Assembly: GCA_012519255.1 (NCBI GenBank)
Contig: JAAYQQ010000068.1
Coordinates: 1 to 42,853, forward strand
DNA length: 42,853 nucleotides
Direction: 5' to 3'
Source of the DNA: Methanobacteriota archaeon
GTDB lineage: Archaea > Thermoplasmatota > Thermoplasmata > Methanomassiliicoccales > Methanomassiliicoccaceae
Shown: piece by piece, positions 1-8,583 of the stretch
How positions within the stretch are numbered: position 1 is the stretch's first letter
Layout: every line of letters begins with the position of its first letter
Translations under genes and position numbers: made by a program
Notes under the pieces: model-generated
Database searches by the model: none
What the model was told of the DNA's origin: nothing
Seen by the model: only the letters and a program-made list of their open reading frames with translations

Positions 1-1
1 C

Positions 2-163
2 GAGGGGCCGTGCCATTTCGACATGCCTCGCGCCCTGGTATGCGAAGGTTGTGGGGCCCAAATCGATAATCTCGGGTACGAGCTCCGGCTGCACCGCGGA
101 CGTGTGTACATATGCCGGGAGTGCTTCAAGGAGACGACAGAGACCTATCATTCAACGGTCTGA
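2..163 (+). CDS. C-terminal end of a small zinc-ribbon protein (partial)
   Basis: An open frame enters from the left edge and stops at TGA 161-163, leaving the last 53 residues. It holds two CxxC knuckles, CEGC near residue 14 and CREC near residue 38 of the visible part, about 20 residues apart, which is the pattern of a zinc ribbon. The N-terminus lies outside the window, so family and length cannot be judged. It runs toward the leftward gene at 152-574 and overlaps its end by 12 bases. It may be element cargo or a host gene; the window does not decide this. Confidence 0.6.
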   Translation, partial: EGPCHFDMPRALVCEGCGAQIDNLGYELRLHRGRVYICRECFKETTETYHSTV

Positions 164-574
164 TAGGATGCTGTTAATTCTTGCTGTAGTCTCTTTGACA
201 TATCTTTCTATGCCGGCCAGATATGCATCTAGTTCGTCGCCGCATCCTAGACTTGCCCCTTTCATAAAGGTGTAGAACTCCACCAGGTAATCACGGAAGT
301 CCCCTACTGTGGTAGCAAAGTCGCCCATGATTTCCGGGGCATGGAGCGATATGAAATCATCCAGATTCTCGATGTCCTTCTCCAGGAACGGTATATAGGT
401 CCTCATTATGAAGCAACCATGTTTTTTAGACATGTTCATGTGTAGCAGAGGCTTGTTTAGGAGTCGGCTGAGTTCACGGAGAAGTTTATCTGCTTCCTCT
501 CGACGGCCCTTATTATTTGTATACCATGAAGCGATAGCATCAACAGCTTTGGCGATCAGGAGGTCGACTACCAT
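152..574 (-). CDS. Unknown protein paired with a winged-helix regulator
   Basis: About 140 residues, mostly helical in character, with no motif I recognise. It is rich in charged residues, has Cys at a few positions and no membrane segment or signal peptide. It follows the winged-helix gene at 580-867. A GTG at 583 overlaps that gene's stop as GTGA, but the GGGGA ribosome site sits about eight bases before ATG 574, so I prefer 574. The tight spacing indicates translation from one message with the regulator. A sensor, ligand-binding or toxin-like partner of the regulator is possible, but nothing in the sequence shows it. It lies on the element side of the tRNA-Pro junction. Confidence 0.6.
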   Translation of the reverse strand: MVVDLLIAKAVDAIASWYTNNKGRREEADKLLRELSRLLNKPLLHMNMSKKHGCFIMRTYIPFLEKDIENLDDFISLHAPEIMGDFATTVGDFRDYLVEFYTFMKGASLGCGDELDAYLAGIERYVKETTARINSILSDR

Positions 575-579
575 GCGCT

Positions 580-867
580 TCACTCCCCTTGTAGGAGCTC
601 CTCAATCGCGGCGAGATGCTCCGCGACCTGCCGACCCTTCGGGGTGAGCTCCACGAACTTGCGGAATGGTCGAGTGTCTTCTCGTTCCTCTGTTATGAGG
701 CCGAGTTTTACGAGCTCATCAACTCGGGATTGTACGGACACCGTGCCTTTAGCAACATATGATGCCAAGACTCCCTTGATCATCTTCCCTTCAAAATACA
801 GAATGATCAGGATTTTGATGGCGTGAGTGGCCTCTAAGCTTCCAGCCTTGAGGTTCCTGTAATCCAT
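580..867 (-). CDS. Winged-helix transcriptional regulator (MarR/ArsR-like fold)
   Basis: Ninety-five residues forming one winged-helix domain. A first helix (about residues 14-28) is followed by a helix-turn-helix around VSVQSRVDELVKLGLI (about 43-58) and a basic wing ending in FVELTPKGRQ (about 70-79), typical of MarR/PadR-like archaeal repressors. No ligand domain or Cys switch is visible. A TATA-like ATTAAAT (complement of about 886-892) lies roughly 22 bases before the ATG, so the message is probably leaderless. An ATGAAGC motif overlaps this promoter and more copies follow upstream, which suggests autoregulation. It forms an operon with the unknown gene 152-574. Confidence 0.75.
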   Translation of the reverse strand: MDYRNLKAGSLEATHAIKILIILYFEGKMIKGVLASYVAKGTVSVQSRVDELVKLGLITEEREDTRPFRKFVELTPKGRQVAEHLAAIEELLQGE

Positions 868-891: not shown

Positions 892-914
892 ATGAAGCTA
901 AGTTTATGCTTCAT
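892..914. promoter_or_regulatory. Inverted repeat ATGAAGC-N9-GCTTCAT, putative operator
   Basis: ATGAAGC at 892-898 and its reverse complement at 908-914 are separated by nine bases, overlapping and just upstream of the TATA-like element of the winged-helix gene. The position is where a repressor would block transcription initiation. Binding is inferred from position and symmetry. Confidence 0.5.
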
Positions 915-963
915 GTTATGAATGATGCATAAGGTATAAATCCTAACTATTGTATTCCCACAT

Positions 964-984
964 GCTTCATGGGAAACATGAAGC
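964..984. promoter_or_regulatory. Inverted repeat GCTTCATG-N5-CATGAAGC, putative operator
   Basis: A perfect 8-base inverted repeat (964-971 and 977-984) with a five-base spacer, made from the same ATGAAGC word as the site at 892-914. It lies about 100 bases upstream of the winged-helix gene, in the space between it and the integrase, so it could serve either direction. Role inferred. Confidence 0.5.
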
Positions 985-1296: not shown

Positions 1297-2373
1297 ATGA
1301 GCCGCCCAACTCGTCGTTCCGGCAAGTATGCCGGGACATCGGCGACGGCCGATGATCGCGGTATTAAGTCCATGAGGCTCGGCCGCTACCCTTTCGCCGC
1401 GGGCATCCCCATGTATGCGAGGAGCAAGGTCGGGTGCTGGAACCCCAATTCCACCATGGTCGAGGAATCCCGCAAGCTCCGGCAGATCGGACGGCAGTTC
1501 GAAACCCTCAAGAAGGATGGAAAGGTCCCATCCGCCGATCCGCGACTCATCAGATGGGTTGACGTGCAGGAATGGATGTTGACCATCCGGCATCTCGACC
1601 CCGATGTGCAAGGGGCGCAGATCATGCGCCTGAACGGCTACTTACGTTTCTTCCGTAATTATTCTATACAACACCAGCTGGATGCTGGCTTCAGGTTGCC
1701 CCGTCGGGCGAGGCGTACGATACGAGTTATCGATGAGGATGATCTGCCCGTCATCTTCGAGGCGGCAATGCGAATCAAAGGCTGGACCGGCTCGGTCGCC
1801 AGAGGCATGATGGCGCTGTATTTCGCTACCGGCGTGCGACCGAGCGAGCTGCGGCTTGCTGAGTACAACGACCTGGACATGACGAGGCTGCGATTCTTTG
1901 TTCGACATCCCAAGGGCGAGGGCAACTGGGCCTCGCCGGAGTGGGTGAATATCATTCGCGGTGACGTCATCCCTCTTATCGATAATTACCTCAGGGAGCG
2001 TTCCGCGTTCCTCGCTTCGGTCGATCGCTCTGATGAGGTGCCACTTTTCCCCAAGCAAAAAGGGACGGGCTTCTACTCGGCCAACCGCTTCCGTCAGATA
2101 AAGCAAATGGTCGTTAAGGAGTCTGGAATCAACTTCCGGCTCAAGGACTTCCGGTCGACTCTATGCAGCATGACCGTGCAGGAGGATCGGAGCCGCCTTC
2201 CCGACATGGCCGCACAGCTGCGGCATTCGATCGCCACCGCCGAGCGCTACTATGCCGCCATTGATCGGTCCCGCGCCGGCAGGCGGCTTAAGGATGCTTG
2301 GAAGGATAATCAAATAGTTATTCGCCAAACAACTGCTATTGACGATGATAACGAGGTGACTGGATATGAGTGA
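1297..2373 (+). CDS. int: Tyrosine recombinase (integrase) of an integrated element
   Basis: A 358-residue site-specific recombinase. The middle (about residues 50-120) is a helical core-binding domain. The catalytic domain carries the first arginine in TGVRPSELR, a candidate lysine in RHPKGEG, the second box as KDFRST (Lys in place of the usual His), a His in LRHSIATAERYY and the nucleophilic Tyr in that same segment. GGGAGG at 1282-1287 precedes ATG 1297; later starts such as codon 26 are possible. Its TGA at 2371-2373 directly abuts the encoded CCA complement of tRNA-Pro, the arrangement expected when an element has inserted at a tRNA 3' end. The element would extend leftward beyond the window. 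Confidence 0.88.
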   Translation: MSRPTRRSGKYAGTSATADDRGIKSMRLGRYPFAAGIPMYARSKVGCWNPNSTMVEESRKLRQIGRQFETLKKDGKVPSADPRLIRWVDVQEWMLTIRHLDPDVQGAQIMRLNGYLRFFRNYSIQHQLDAGFRLPRRARRTIRVIDEDDLPVIFEAAMRIKGWTGSVARGMMALYFATGVRPSELRLAEYNDLDMTRLRFFVRHPKGEGNWASPEWVNIIRGDVIPLIDNYLRERSAFLASVDRSDEVPLFPKQKGTGFYSANRFRQIKQMVVKESGINFRLKDFRSTLCSMTVQEDRSRLPDMAAQLRHSIATAERYYAAIDRSRAGRRLKDAWKDNQIVIRQTTAIDDDNEVTGYE

Positions 2374-2449
2374 TGGTGGGTCTGCCCGAATTTGAATCGG
2401 AGTCACCAGCACCCCAAGCTGGAAGGATACCAAGCTACCCCACAGACCC
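2374..2449 (-). tRNA. tRNA-Pro (anticodon GGG), CCA encoded
   Basis: Read on the minus strand the acceptor stem is GGGTCTG/CAGACCC. The D arm is the typical archaeal Pro form, the anticodon stem CCAGC/GCTGG holds the loop TTGGGGT (anticodon GGG), and the T loop is TTCAAAT with a five-pair stem. Discriminator A and CCA (complement of 2374-2377) are encoded. It sits 34 bases after rpoN on the same strand and is probably co-transcribed with the ribosomal operon. The integrase stop codon touches its 3' end, so this tRNA is the likely attachment site. Confidence 0.95.
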
Positions 2450-2483: not shown

Positions 2484-2675
2484 TTATCCCAAGGGTATGA
2501 CCTCATCGACGAGGTCAGCATGGGCTACAATCATGCGGCGGCAACAATAGCGCTTCAGACCAAGATCGTCGAGAACCTGCTTGGAATCTTCTCCAAGCTG
2601 CACTCGCTTGATATATGTCTGGTAGACGCCACCGACAACCTTTCCACATGTGAAGCACCTGACTGGGATTTGCAT
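2484..2675 (-). CDS. rpoN: DNA-directed RNA polymerase subunit N (Rpb10)
   Basis: A 63-residue protein matching the whole archaeal RpoN/Rpb10 family: [11 protein letters not shown] at the N-terminus, the KRYCCRRM zinc-binding segment in the middle and [10 protein letters not shown] at the end. The CxxC (Cys7, Cys10) and CC pair bind one zinc. The subunit helps assemble the large polymerase subunits with the alpha-like subunits. It starts five bases after uS9 and lies in the conserved archaeal order eL18-uL13-uS9-rpoN. RpoK, which commonly follows in archaea, is not present here; tRNA-Pro and the integrase junction come next instead. Confidence 0.96.
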
Positions 2676-2680
2676 CTAGC

Positions 2681-3082
2681 TCACCTGTAGGACTTCTGCC
2701 TCTTCTTCCTGGCACCACGACCAAGGGGCTTCTTTGGAAGCTTCCTGCGTGGATCGCTGATTAGCAGAGAGCGGTCATATTGCTTGAATATTTTCTCAAG
2801 CTCCTCATCCTTGAGGAAGTCCACCAGGCCCTTGGCAATAGCAGTGCGCGTGGCCTCAGCCTGGCCCATGAACCCGCCGCCCTGGACCTTGACGGCCACA
2901 TCGACTTTGGCCACCTTATCGCCAGCCAGAGTCATAGGCTCCATGATCTTGAGTCGAGCGATCTCAGGAGTGAATACCTCTATAGGTACGTTATTGACGC
3001 GGAGCTTACCGGTGCCCTCACTGACCACAGCCCTGGCCACGGCTTCCTTCCGCTTTCCGCTGATATTGATTACTTCTGCCAT
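2681..3082 (-). CDS. rps9: 30S ribosomal protein uS9
   Basis: A full-length 133-residue archaeal uS9. The N-terminus ISGKRKEAVARAVV and the GGGFMGQAEATRTAIAKGL core are family hallmarks. The basic tail ends in KKRQKSYR, whose C-terminal SxR reaches toward the peptidyl tRNA in the P site. It follows uL13 by four bases and precedes rpoN by five, all leftward, and ends with TAG. Expression should follow the eL18 promoter. Confidence 0.97.
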   Translation of the reverse strand: MAEVINISGKRKEAVARAVVSEGTGKLRVNNVPIEVFTPEIARLKIMEPMTLAGDKVAKVDVAVKVQGGGFMGQAEATRTAIAKGLVDFLKDEELEKIFKQYDRSLLISDPRRKLPKKPLGRGARKKRQKSYR

Positions 3083-3511: not shown

Positions 3512-3874
3512 TCACCCCATGATCTTGACCTTGTTACCGGAAGGATTCTCCTTGACCAGCTCAGGTATAGTCATTCGCTTTCCTCCCGCTTCTTCAATGG
3601 CCTTGGCGGCCGAGGCGGAGAATCGGAACGCGGCAACAGTTATCTTCTTATTGATGGCTCCGGCGCCCAGAACTTTGCCTGGAACGACGATGATATCTCC
3701 ATCTTGTGCGTATCTTTCCAACCTGCTCAGGTTAACCTCGGCCCAGTTACGGCTAGGCCTCTCCAAACGCTGAGCAATGTCTCGCCAGATGGCGGCTTGC
3801 CCTTCCCTGGTCTCTTTCTTCAGGTCACTGATTAGAGAAACCAGATTGGGGTCCGTCTTGCGAATAAGCTTCAT
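3512..3874 (-). CDS. rpl18e: 50S ribosomal protein eL18 (L18e)
   Basis: Archaeal eL18, about 120 residues, with the N-terminal KTDPNLVSLISDLKK, central RPSRNWAEVNLSRLERY and DGDIIVVPGKVLGAG segments that identify the family. The frame is open upstream to a GTG at 3940, but ATG 3874 has the ribosome site GGGAG six bases before it, fits family length, and lies the right distance below the TATA box at 3918-3928. This is the first gene of the eL18-uL13-uS9-rpoN-tRNA-Pro operon. Confidence 0.95.
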   Translation of the reverse strand: MKLIRKTDPNLVSLISDLKKETREGQAAIWRDIAQRLERPSRNWAEVNLSRLERYAQDGDIIVVPGKVLGAGAINKKITVAAFRFSASAAKAIEEAGGKRMTIPELVKENPSGNKVKIMG

Positions 3875-3917
3875 TCTGACTCCCTCGACATTGTCGTAGA
3901 AGGCGCTAATGGGCATG

Positions 3918-3928
3918 TATTTAATAAA
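3918..3928 (-). promoter_or_regulatory. TATA box of the eL18 ribosomal operon
   Basis: TTTATTAAATA on the minus strand, preceded by the purine-rich GAAAGC (BRE-like). It lies about 45-55 bases before ATG 3874, giving a short leader that contains the GGGAG ribosome site. It sits 35 bases beyond the stop of the upstream helicase gene. Confidence 0.65.
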
Positions 3929-3963
3929 GCTTTCTCCCACTCCCAGTACCTATCCAGCATCTC

Positions 3964-6900
3964 TCAATCCACTCTGCTGAGCGCCCCCTGCGAGCGGACC
4001 AATTGCCCCCGCTCTATCAGTTCTTCCACCGCTTTGGCAATCCTCCGCCGGGCTTTTGTAGAGGGGCGCTTATAGCCATATAGGGCAGTGGTCCTGGCGA
4101 CAAGAGTTTTCTCGTCCAGCATATTTTCCTCATCCAATATGTTTAGAATGGCTAGTCGCAGTTCTTCCATGCAAACAAACCATAGCTCTCTTCTCTCTCC
4201 CTCGGCGGAGCTGCGTACTGGAGGCGCATCCATCTCCGGCGACCATAGGAATGAACCATCCGATACGATCCTCTCCTGTTCTGCCAGCTCTCCGATGACA
4301 TCCGCTTCCTCGGCCCTTGTAGGCCCTCTTTGGAGACCACACTTCTTGTAGAGTTCTCGGAGGCGATCATGTACCACATCTGGATGTATTGGACTCTCTT
4401 CTAGTATGACTACTTCCACAACTTCTGACATCGCTGCGTTTTGGTCGGCGCGGAATCGTTCGATCAGATCCTCATATTGTTCCCAATCGACCTTTTGATA
4501 TGGCACGGGTCTGACCCTTGGCAGAGCAGGTACAATCTCTACAGAACTCTGCGCCTGGGTGAGAACATCTCCCGATGCATCCTCCAAGGCTTCTGTGCAA
4601 TCGATAATCTCTATTGATGGCGTCATATCTTCTTCAATGGTGGTTGGGATAGGCGCCTTCTCCACGGCCCGGACGATCCTATCTGCTTCGCCGTCTGGAT
4701 CCCGGACCCAGTCAGCTGACCAGGTACGATGGACTTTCCAGCCAAGCTTGGTGAGGACCTCTTGCCTAAGGCGTTCACGGTCCCGAGCAGTGGGGCCGGA
4801 GTAGTAGGATGGCCCGTCAGTCTCCACCGCCAGGAAAAGATCTCCATGGTGGCTTTCCACCGCCAGGTCGATACGATAGCCCGAACAGCCCCATCGTGGA
4901 TGAACGTGAAGGCCCCTCGCCTCCAGAGCTTTGACCATAGCATTCTCCAGCGGCAAGCCCTCCCTCTTCTCCTCATCAAATGAGAGTGCCTCCCTGGCTC
5001 CTCCACTAATCGCATATTCCATGAACTGTTTCAGCAACTCCACTCCGGCCGACGTCGATTTGAGGTCCTGAGGGAGAATGGATGACACTACCTTGAGTGA
5101 TTTCCTGGCCCTCGTAATGGCGACGTTGAGTCTGCACTCCCCGCCTGCCCGGTTGAGCGGTCCAAAGGAGTGGTGCATCTTTCCCTGAGAATCTTTGCCG
5201 TATCCAAGACTGAAGATGATGACATCCCGCTCATCTCCCTGGATGTTCTCCAGGTTCTTGACAAAGAACTCTTCAGGTATGCCTTCTTTGAATATTATGG
5301 ACAGTTCCGGTTCCGCCCTGACTCTACCCTCCAGCTCTTCCAAGATGGCCATCTGCTGGGCCTCGCTGAAAGCCACAACGCCGAGGGACAGTTCGGGATG
5401 TTGCAGAAAGTGCGCCACCACTAGATCTGCGACCTTGACGGCCTCGGGCATATTGCGTCGACTGGCACCCCGATCATAGCAACCCTCCGGCACATGCACG
5501 AAACTAACTCCGCGCCCGAACGGCCTGCCCGCGGATGGGAAGGTAAACAATCTCCCCCCGTAGAAGTGCTGATTGAAGAAGGCGATAAGGGATTCATTCT
5601 CACTGCGATAGTGCCAACGCAGCATCTTCTGTGGGAGACACGATGAGCATTCATCCAATATGCTCTCTAAATCTGGGATCTCCACGTCCTCATCCTCATT
5701 GATCTCCCTGAAGAAATCGGTAGGGGGCAGTTGCTTTGTATCTCCAACGATGATGATCTGCCGGCCTCGCATGATCGAACCAATGGCATCCTCTGGTCTG
5801 ATCTGAGAAGCCTCGTCGAATATGACCAGGTCGAAGTGGACTTGGGCAGGGTCAAGATACATGCTGACCGACAGAGGACTCATGAGCAAGCATGGCTTGA
5901 GTAGAAGTATGGCCTCTCCGGCACGGGTGAAGAGCTCGCGCAGCGGCCTTAATCCTTTCTTGCGGTTGATCTCGTGCCGAAGCACCCACATGGGGCTACC
6001 AAGGGAGGGGCTGGCGTCATTCACCAACGAATATCTCCGTTTCTGCAATAGGGCACGGAGGCGTACGGCGGCAATATCCAGTTGTTTCCGGTCGAGCCTG
6101 CGGAATTGCTCCACCACCTCGGCATGTTTGTCCCTCTGGAAGTCCCGCAGCCTGCTATCGGTAGTGGAAAGATGATCATGCCATAATGAGAAGTATCGCT
6201 TCCTCACAGCATCCCATAGGCCTTCAGGAGCGAGCTGCCCCTCCTCGGCCAATGAAAGAAGCTCATGGAGCCCATGTTGACGACACTCACGCCGCAGGCG
6301 ATTGGTATGTACCCATTCTTGGAACCGGTCAATGGTATCGAGGTGCTCCTTTGCCCAGGACGATATCTCATCCAGCCCAACCTCTTGAACATCCCTGCCG
6401 CTTAGTAGGACGGTAAGATCGAAGGATGAGGATATCTCATCAATATCCGCCGCCACTTTCAGGGCACTCTGTTCAATAACTTCGAGTTCAGCCAGTATAC
6501 TATCAGCCACGGAGGATGGACTAACAATGAGCTGTCCAAGCGCCTTTCCAGGAGCGCCGTAGCGATCACGATATTCCTTACACCATTCAATAGCGCATTT
6601 CAGGGAATCCCAATCGGTATCCCTATCGTGGAAGTGAGAACCGAACAGTTCTGCACATTTCTCCTCGAGGCGACGGACCGCATTGCTTTGTTGACTGATC
6701 TCCAATGCCTCAGAGACATCCCTTGCTGCCTCTTTGCGGTCCAATTTATGGGAGGTTGTCCGGTGATTTCTCAGGAGACGCATGTCGCGCCAGTAGCTGC
6801 GACGCAACCATCGGAATGGGGAAAGATGCTCTGCATGAAAGCGTTTCTCCATTTCTGTGAGTTCGAGCGATAAGATCTCCTCACCATATCTGCTCTTGAG

Positions 6901-8583
6901 AACGTCCATTCTCGCATCGAGGTTGTCATAGGCATCTTGCATTTCTTTTAGGCGAAGGAGGAGTTCATCAGGGTTCTCCAACCATTCAGTCATTGGTCGA
7001 GGTGACGAAATGGCGAAGCGTAACTGTTCCACCATTGAATTTATCTCTAACAACGTGGAAGGGCAGTCTAGCTCATAACGGGCGCCCAGCTCGGCGGAAA
7101 GATGCAAAGTCTCTGCCGGGACATCCCGACAAGATATCAACGATCGCTCCATCTCAGGGCGGGCGCTTATCTTCCAAGAATCCAATAAACAATCCCGCCA
7201 GGGATGCATGTCCCGACCCATTAGCAGGGCCATATTTCGTTCCATCTCCCGGACGAGCGGCCCAAGAGCCTCTAGATCCTTAATCCCCATTTGGTGTAGA
7301 TTGGGAAATTGAATAGTTAGATCATAGGCATCATGAAGGGCGGCGAGCTCGGAATTGATGTGGAAGAAAGAGGTGCCTGCCCCCTCGCGGAGTTCATGCA
7401 GCGCCTGGACATGGTTATTGAGGCGGTCCCTGACTATTTCCAACTCTTCCGAATCTCCCAGATCTTCATTGGGGGGAGATTGCGGCTGGAAACACCTCCC
7501 TAGTTCAGCCACAACTCTTTGCCTATTGGCTCTATGACTATGCAGCTCTAGACAGTAATCTCCAAGACCGCGATCATCCAGTCTTCTCTTGACCACCTCT
7601 AGGGCGGCCATTTTCTCTGATACGAAGAGCACCGTACGGCCCTTGGCCAGACTCTCGGCGATAATATTGGTAATGGTCTGGCTTTTCCCCGTGCCCGGGG
7701 GGCCCTGCAGGACAAAACTGGCCCCTTGTTTGGCAAGGGCAATGGCCTCCTGCTGACTGGAGTCTGCGTCAAGGACCTGGTATGTCTCTGAAAGTTTCTC
7801 CTTTTCATCCAGTTGTTCGGGCGATATGCCGGAAACAACGGGAAGATCGGCAGGGCAGCCCGATAGCGCCCGGATTACCGGGTGCTCTGAGGCCAAATCC
7901 TTGGCCACTGTTAGCTCCTCGTACATTGGCATCTTGGCGAATGAGAATAGGCCAAGGTAGATGCCCTCGCTAATGGTCCAATCAGTCTGCCCCACACTTT
8001 CCTGGACCATATCCAACATTGTACTGATGGAGGCCGCTCCTTGGTCAGTTGGCAAGGAAGGTATCTCCAATTGATACTCGGTGCGCAATCTGTGTTCCAA
8101 TATGGGATTGAGCACTGCCCCACTATCATCTAGTGCGGCCACGCGATATGGCTGAAGGGGCCCGCCTCTGCGTAGGTCCACAGGTATAAGAATGAGCGGA
8201 GAGCGTAGGGACTGACCGTTACTATCTTGCCACTTTAGCATACCTATGCTTAGGAATAAGATATGGATGCCTTGCTCTCTTTGGGCAGCCCGGGCCTTGA
8301 GGCGGAGGTTCAATAGCGTCCGCTCTACCACGGTATGTCCACGGTCGGAGAGCAGCTTACCAGAATTTTCTGCCCCTTCTGCATCCAAGGCGACCTCCAT
8401 TTCTTCCTTTTGGAGCACCAGTCGATCAAATATCGTCTGTGCCGCAGGGCTGGTCAAGCGAAGGACACTTGATGACTCTCTAAAATTGATAAGCCGATTC
8501 CTCTGGCTGGTGTCTATCAGGTTCCTTCGCCAACGTTCTATACGTTCAACTATCACATCATCTTCTAGAGTGCTCATTCCCAT
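3964..8583 (-). CDS. DUF4011 / SF1 helicase / Vsr-like nuclease / DUF3320 protein
   Basis: A 1539-residue multidomain protein. Residues about 10-190 match the DUF4011 type (IERWRRNLIDTSQRNRLINF). A UPF1/DNA2-like superfamily 1 helicase follows: Walker A GPPGTGKSQT near 294, a roughly 600-residue helical insertion, Walker B FDEASQ near 921, GDTKQLPP just after, and NVAITRARK near 1154. Residues about 1230-1320 resemble DUF559/Vsr-type PD-(D/E)xK nucleases (RIDLAV...LAVETDGPSY...RDRERLR...WS.DW). About 1350-1430 resembles DUF3320. Proteins of this architecture are common in prokaryotic defence regions. It stands alone on the minus strand, between a ribosomal operon and an endonuclease IV-like gene. 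ATG 8577 is an alternative start. All core motifs appear intact. Confidence 0.9.
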   Translation of the reverse strand: MGMSTLEDDVIVERIERWRRNLIDTSQRNRLINFRESSSVLRLTSPAAQTIFDRLVLQKEEMEVALDAEGAENSGKLLSDRGHTVVERTLLNLRLKARAAQREQGIHILFLSIGMLKWQDSNGQSLRSPLILIPVDLRRGGPLQPYRVAALDDSGAVLNPILEHRLRTEYQLEIPSLPTDQGAASISTMLDMVQESVGQTDWTISEGIYLGLFSFAKMPMYEELTVAKDLASEHPVIRALSGCPADLPVVSGISPEQLDEKEKLSETYQVLDADSSQQEAIALAKQGASFVLQGPPGTGKSQTITNIIAESLAKGRTVLFVSEKMAALEVVKRRLDDRGLGDYCLELHSHRANRQRVVAELGRCFQPQSPPNEDLGDSEELEIVRDRLNNHVQALHELREGAGTSFFHINSELAALHDAYDLTIQFPNLHQMGIKDLEALGPLVREMERNMALLMGRDMHPWRDCLLDSWKISARPEMERSLISCRDVPAETLHLSAELGARYELDCPSTLLEINSMVEQLRFAISSPRPMTEWLENPDELLLRLKEMQDAYDNLDARMDVLKSRYGEEILSLELTEMEKRFHAEHLSPFRWLRRSYWRDMRLLRNHRTTSHKLDRKEAARDVSEALEISQQSNAVRRLEEKCAELFGSHFHDRDTDWDSLKCAIEWCKEYRDRYGAPGKALGQLIVSPSSVADSILAELEVIEQSALKVAADIDEISSSFDLTVLLSGRDVQEVGLDEISSWAKEHLDTIDRFQEWVHTNRLRRECRQHGLHELLSLAEEGQLAPEGLWDAVRKRYFSLWHDHLSTTDSRLRDFQRDKHAEVVEQFRRLDRKQLDIAAVRLRALLQKRRYSLVNDASPSLGSPMWVLRHEINRKKGLRPLRELFTRAGEAILLLKPCLLMSPLSVSMYLDPAQVHFDLVIFDEASQIRPEDAIGSIMRGRQIIIVGDTKQLPPTDFFREINEDEDVEIPDLESILDECSSCLPQKMLRWHYRSENESLIAFFNQHFYGGRLFTFPSAGRPFGRGVSFVHVPEGCYDRGASRRNMPEAVKVADLVVAHFLQHPELSLGVVAFSEAQQMAILEELEGRVRAEPELSIIFKEGIPEEFFVKNLENIQGDERDVIIFSLGYGKDSQGKMHHSFGPLNRAGGECRLNVAITRARKSLKVVSSILPQDLKSTSAGVELLKQFMEYAISGGAREALSFDEEKREGLPLENAMVKALEARGLHVHPRWGCSGYRIDLAVESHHGDLFLAVETDGPSYYSGPTARDRERLRQEVLTKLGWKVHRTWSADWVRDPDGEADRIVRAVEKAPIPTTIEEDMTPSIEIIDCTEALEDASGDVLTQAQSSVEIVPALPRVRPVPYQKVDWEQYEDLIERFRADQNAAMSEVVEVVILEESPIHPDVVHDRLRELYKKCGLQRGPTRAEEADVIGELAEQERIVSDGSFLWSPEMDAPPVRSSAEGERRELWFVCMEELRLAILNILDEENMLDEKTLVARTTALYGYKRPSTKARRRIAKAVEELIERGQLVRSQGALSRVD

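Follow-up and report, generated by a model that had tools for sequence, protein, structure and literature searches.

We find that the window, which is the whole of contig C8 (42,853 bases, counted from its first base) in a 149-contig archaeal draft genome (G000), most probably holds the attL end of an integrative element in the 3′ end of a tRNA-Pro(GGG) gene. The element would have been placed there by tyrosine-recombinase site-specific recombination, with the neighboring operon left undisrupted. We put the probability of this reading, which is drawn from sequence comparison, at roughly 0.85. The rest of the element would lie off the contig, left of base 1. The genes eL18, uL13, uS9, rpoN, and tRNA-Pro(GGG) succeed one another on the minus strand, as assigned with ARAGORN and Pfam matches, and the features at the junction are as follows.

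1..163, plus strand: short zinc-ribbon ORF, truncated where the contig ends, with weak sub-threshold zinc-ribbon matches
152..583, minus strand: 143-aa ORF of unknown family, overlapping the next gene by 4 bp, with only a weak TPR_7 match
580..867, minus strand: winged-helix regulator, 95 aa (PHROG transcriptional regulator, 3.5e-06; ArnR1-like/PadR below cut-off)
906..984, no strand: paired 23-bp repeat with ATGCTTCATG/CATGAAGC palindromes, found by repeat search between the winged-helix gene and the integrase
1297..2373, plus strand: tyrosine recombinase/integrase, 358 aa, type II (gene-intact), with PF00589 and PHROG matches
2360..2366, minus strand: TATCCAG, the right arm-like motif, spanning +8 to +14 past the CCA, within codons ACT GGA TAT (T-G-Y) of the integrase
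2374..2388, minus strand: att core CGGGCAGACCCACCA (attL copy), set by the exact tRNA/attR repeats in genomes G009 and G010
2374..2449, minus strand: tRNA-Pro(GGG), the target gene, intact and with CCA encoded (ARAGORN)
2484..2675, minus strand: rpoN (Rpo10), PF01194, 1e-28
2681..3082, minus strand: uS9, PF00380
3087..3506, minus strand: uL13, PF00572
3512..3871, minus strand: eL18, PF00828/PF17135, with its start picked as the ATG at 3871 within a longer ORF, 3512-3940, that has a GTG start

The 1297-2373 product matches Phage_integrase (PF00589) at 5.6e-07, above the cut-off of that family, and the PHROG integrases at 3e-14. Its catalytic set (R181, K206, K283xxR286, H310, and Y319) is present and is invariant in a 4-sequence alignment. 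The complete 358-codon ORF ends ahead of the core, which leaves the gene whole after integration, and the full catalytic set, intact integrase gene, and intact target tRNA together are those of a type II, tRNA-targeting system. An integrase of the SSV type (type I, or suicidal), whose gene is split on integration, was considered and rejected because the core lies entirely outside the ORF and the gene is intact. The integrase stops with TGA at 2371-2373, directly followed by 2374-2376, the complement of which is the CCA encoded in the tRNA gene. The stop codon also comes immediately before the CCA in five other integrases of the family that are sited at Pro tRNA genes, and the zero-distance abutment is evidently not due to chance. 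A search of viral contigs for relatives of the integrase returned none. The element genes visible in G000 are the integrase, the winged-helix regulator, the 143-aa ORF, and the partial zinc-ribbon ORF only; the last of these is probably cargo, if, as we infer, it lies within the element. The paired repeat at 906..984 is a likely candidate for an operator.

The tRNA-Pro(GGG) gene lies 5-146 bp past rpoN on the same strand in 71 of the 76 genomes of the class that were checked. These include 17 of the 22 genomes outside the order; one more genome has a CGG tRNA-Pro there, and a tRNA-Pro is found after rpoN across the class with the element present or absent. The common 15-bp core of the family, CGGRCAGACCCACCA, runs from the 3′ strand of the T stem to the CCA, that is, the 3′ end of the tRNA. 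Because the shared core is this end, an element entering here would regenerate the end that it displaces, and the G000 element appears to have restored its target in this way. Exact copies of the core number two in the G000 assembly, each within a tRNA gene. When the far-end repeat (attR) was sought in the assembly with up to two mismatches, only tRNA genes and chance-level matches were returned (the reversed control pattern gave 6), and no contig overlap was found at window base 1.

G009 (49% identity) and G048 have the same integrase at this tRNA; G010, G013, and G040 have it at tRNA-Pro(UGG). Two of these relatives are complete. In G009, the last 15 bp of the tRNA, CGGACAGACCCACCA, is repeated 16.7 kb away, and in G010, CGGGCAGACCCACCA is repeated 16.4 kb away; both elements carry the integrase, a primase-type replication protein, and restriction/SIR2-type cargo. 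The large replication-type protein adjoins the integrase in both, with 64% mutual identity over the shared part, and that of G010 has Prim-Pol and DnaG zinc-ribbon domains. The cargo of G009 comprises a SIR2 protein (candidate defense family PDC-S25) and a type ISP restriction-modification enzyme, and that of G010 a DNA methylase and a Schlafen-type AlbA_2 protein. The original prediction had read eL18-uL13-uS9-rpoN-tRNA-Pro in one direction up to an integrase stop codon touching the encoded CCA, with coordinates that are exact, and had proposed an integrated element at tRNA-Pro whose body extends to the left. The relatives bear this out, with the same integrase in the same place and a far-end tRNA repeat at 16.4-16.7 kb. 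It had also looked to relatives lacking the element, and the DNA past the G009 attR is indeed colinear with the DNA directly downstream of tRNA-Pro at the element-free junctions of G007, G012, G013, G003, and G001, which evidently supplies the empty-site comparison for G009. By these likenesses, the G000 element appears to belong to a family of integrative elements in Methanomassiliicoccales. In relatives, an MtaA-like gene is found past the tRNA; when it was sought in G000 as a marker of the chromosomal neighbor, no close orthologue turned up.

Two other explanations of the window bear on what lies beyond base 1. In one, the window would hold a decayed remnant of a past integration, reduced to the integrase and a few further genes and no longer mobile. 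Such a remnant could account for our finding neither an attR nor a replication gene (nothing related to the G009 replication protein) in the G000 assembly, and these tRNAs often have degenerate integrase ends beside them, as in G007, in G036, and at the tRNA-Pro(UGG) of G000 itself. We nevertheless consider it unlikely. The integrase ORF has kept its full length, every catalytic residue, and the conserved right motif, whereas remnants elsewhere have lost the ORF, and the contig end can account for the missing attR. The other explanation, put forward in the original prediction, is that the element splits the operon, with rpoK, enolase, and uS2 just past its far end and dependent on element DNA or on a new promoter. 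The premise that rpoK comes next after rpoN in many archaea has a precedent, since rps9-rpoN-rpoK is one operon in Methanococcus maripaludis (PMC10450193). In G000, however, rpoK-uS2 is found on another contig (C61:199-369), where ∼500 bp separates it from leuC-leuD ahead of it and the vicinity contains neither a tRNA gene nor an att copy. We located rpoK in 56 of the 61 genomes of the order, and in the 16 with both genes on one contig, it is at least 19 kb and up to several hundred kb from rpoN, in varying relative orientation. A profile made from 30 rpoK sequences, and not tried on the rpoK of other classes, had no match in the stretches fetched around rpoN at 96 loci of the class. The supposed need of the distal half for its own promoter, or for read-through from the element, is not a consequence of integration either, as a TATA-like promoter, AAAAGGTTTATAAG or similar, stands a few tens of bp before the rpoK start in 30 aligned loci of the order and is kept with or without elements. 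In this order, rpoK is placed beyond the element neither in this genome nor in related ones, an outcome that the original prediction itself named as refuting it, and we regard a split operon as highly improbable. In relatives, whether or not they have the element, rpoK is nowhere near rpoN; the separation of the two genes is old and predates the element, and the ribosomal/RNA-polymerase cluster is, by this gene order, abutted by the element but not cut or disrupted. In place of the operon-splitting idea, the analysis gives an att site that is defined, the motifs at its flanks, and two elements that serve as complete examples. We note that tRNA-Pro(GGG), following rpoN class-wide, occupies the spot held by rpoK in some other archaea.

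The core is flanked by a left motif, CTGGNT, beginning 23-24 bp to its left and a right motif, TATCCAG, beginning 8 bp to its right; the two are mutually inverted, with a midpoint at about the fourth core base. Among 48 core copies located in tRNA genes, 17 have TATCCAG at exactly +8 after the CCA, and the motif is absent from every other position in the 60 bp past the CCA; CTGG is found 23-24 bp ahead of the core in 9 of 9 core copies outside tRNA genes, with the copies in these counts being related by descent and so not independent events. The Gly-Tyr codons of the right motif are GGA TAT in all six integrases that abut Pro tRNAs, and elsewhere the same six genes use all four Gly codons and both Tyr codons. 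These patterns suggest that TATCCAG and CTGGNT may be the integrase-binding arms. With the right motif inside the last codons of the integrase, the gene would end at the tRNA because the right arm must sit there. By symmetry, strand exchange may be centered near the variable base R, at the dyad center of the motifs.

A single base, core position 4 (A or G; tRNA position 65), separates the cores of the GGG and UGG tRNA-Pro genes. The integrases of G009 (GGG) and G010 (UGG) are 74% identical, and they form one group with that of G013 (UGG) with support of 98/99; because GGG- and UGG-sited integrases nest together, the target appears to have switched within this clade. In G000, core position 4 (base 2385) is G, where all other family members have A in their GGG tRNAs, and the tRNA-Pro(GGG) of G000 is one base off the GGG tRNAs of most of its family. 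It is possible that this UGG-type base is a scar of target switching. Elements could move between tRNA-Pro(GGG) and tRNA-Pro(UGG) since the cores differ at R alone, and the G000 copy may have derived from a UGG-type attP, which would have left a U49-G65 wobble in the host GGG tRNA. Taken as a whole, this proposal holds that the family alternates between two Pro isoacceptor genes with each switch rewriting the host T stem, that the G000 GGG tRNA is chimeric with a UGG-type 3′ end, and that the recombination site lies in the last codons of the integrase. We advance it tentatively, at a little short of even odds. That G65 is an ordinary point mutation, or a gene conversion from tRNA-Pro(UGG), unconnected to integration, is also a substantial possibility, though one that we rather doubt: U49-G65 is common in the tRNA-Pro(GGG) of another family of the order, and the last 27 nt are identical between the tRNA-Pro(GGG) and tRNA-Pro(UGG) genes of G000, as gene conversion would give. 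However, G000 is the only one of 14 family genomes in which U49-G65 replaces U49-A65 in the GGG tRNA. The altered base belongs to the core that is exchanged, and it occurs together with a full-length integrase, of which the family has only two at this site. With the two target genes a single base apart, target switching by an archaeal integrase can be tested directly.

At the tRNA-Pro(UGG) of G000 (C144; L118 7831-7908), a decayed-looking integrase end is adjacent, with CATCCAG and a product terminating in EKEMSG before the stop codon, with a methyltransferase and an ABC-transporter ATPase alongside. This locus is probably an older integration at the sister target.

Earlier work (PMC8371274) describes type II archaeal integrases, a preference for the 3′ ends of tRNA genes, and switches from one tRNA gene to a related one. 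The pNOB8-type type II tyrosine recombinases, in the classification of She et al. as given there, resemble the G000 element in that the integrase stays intact and the tRNA 3′ end is targeted and restored; the Methanomassiliicoccales elements differ in being an order-specific family in which the terminal codons of the integrase double as the right motif, leaving no gap between gene and tRNA. The pT26-2-related plasmids of Methanococcales (PMC8371274) have classical, closely related integrases with several tRNA targets, for which target switching was inferred, as here. In contrast to these plasmids, switching here would involve a pair of isoacceptor genes distinguished by one base of the core, and the replication protein, of the primase type, may be a further difference. 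In pXZ1/SSVA (Peng 2008, as cited in PMC8371274), related integrases use two tRNA-Glu genes that are one nucleotide apart, and isoacceptors are likewise involved here, but those are SSV-type elements of Sulfolobales and the integrase gene here is unsplit. The ends of Islander-type genomic islands at tRNA 3′ ends (PMC4383910) are marked by a restored tRNA and a displaced 3′ fragment, as are those of the two complete relatives; the far end of the G000 copy is outside the assembly. A limited literature search found no published account of such elements in Methanomassiliicoccales, an order of methanogens.

The two sides of the gene cluster differ in stability. The DNA downstream of tRNA-Pro mostly varies from genome to genome, which makes that side a hotspot; the side upstream of eL18 is stable. 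Directly upstream of eL18 lies a 1539-aa helicase/nuclease-like protein (3964-8583, minus strand) that matches the candidate defense family PDC-S37 (1352 bits) and Hhe. We considered this gene as part of an insertion or island cargo and rejected the idea, as 9 of 11 relatives have a homologue in roughly this position, which makes it a stable resident. The rpoN/tRNA-Pro junction is a stable class-wide landmark with a hotspot downstream and is useful for mapping defense cargo. In G009 and G048, the integrase end read antisense has T5 runs ∼45 bp past the tRNA, which could terminate the operon transcript. The first 60 bp after the G000 tRNA (window 2314-2373, antisense) contain no run of four T, so read-through of the operon antisense to the integrase is possible in G000.

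Two further loci share features with this site. A second integrase in G000 (C16; L006 1342-2604; 27% identity) is directed at tRNA-Leu(UAA), with its stop codon beside the tRNA 3′ end and a tail also of the P-G-Y-A type, and marks another element of the same architecture in this genome. On contig C3 of G036, two core copies (∼5019 and ∼8703), both on one strand and neither within a tRNA gene, lie 3.7 kb apart. The variable base is A in one and G in the other, both flanking motifs are present at each, and the pair possibly reflects tandem elements or accretion.
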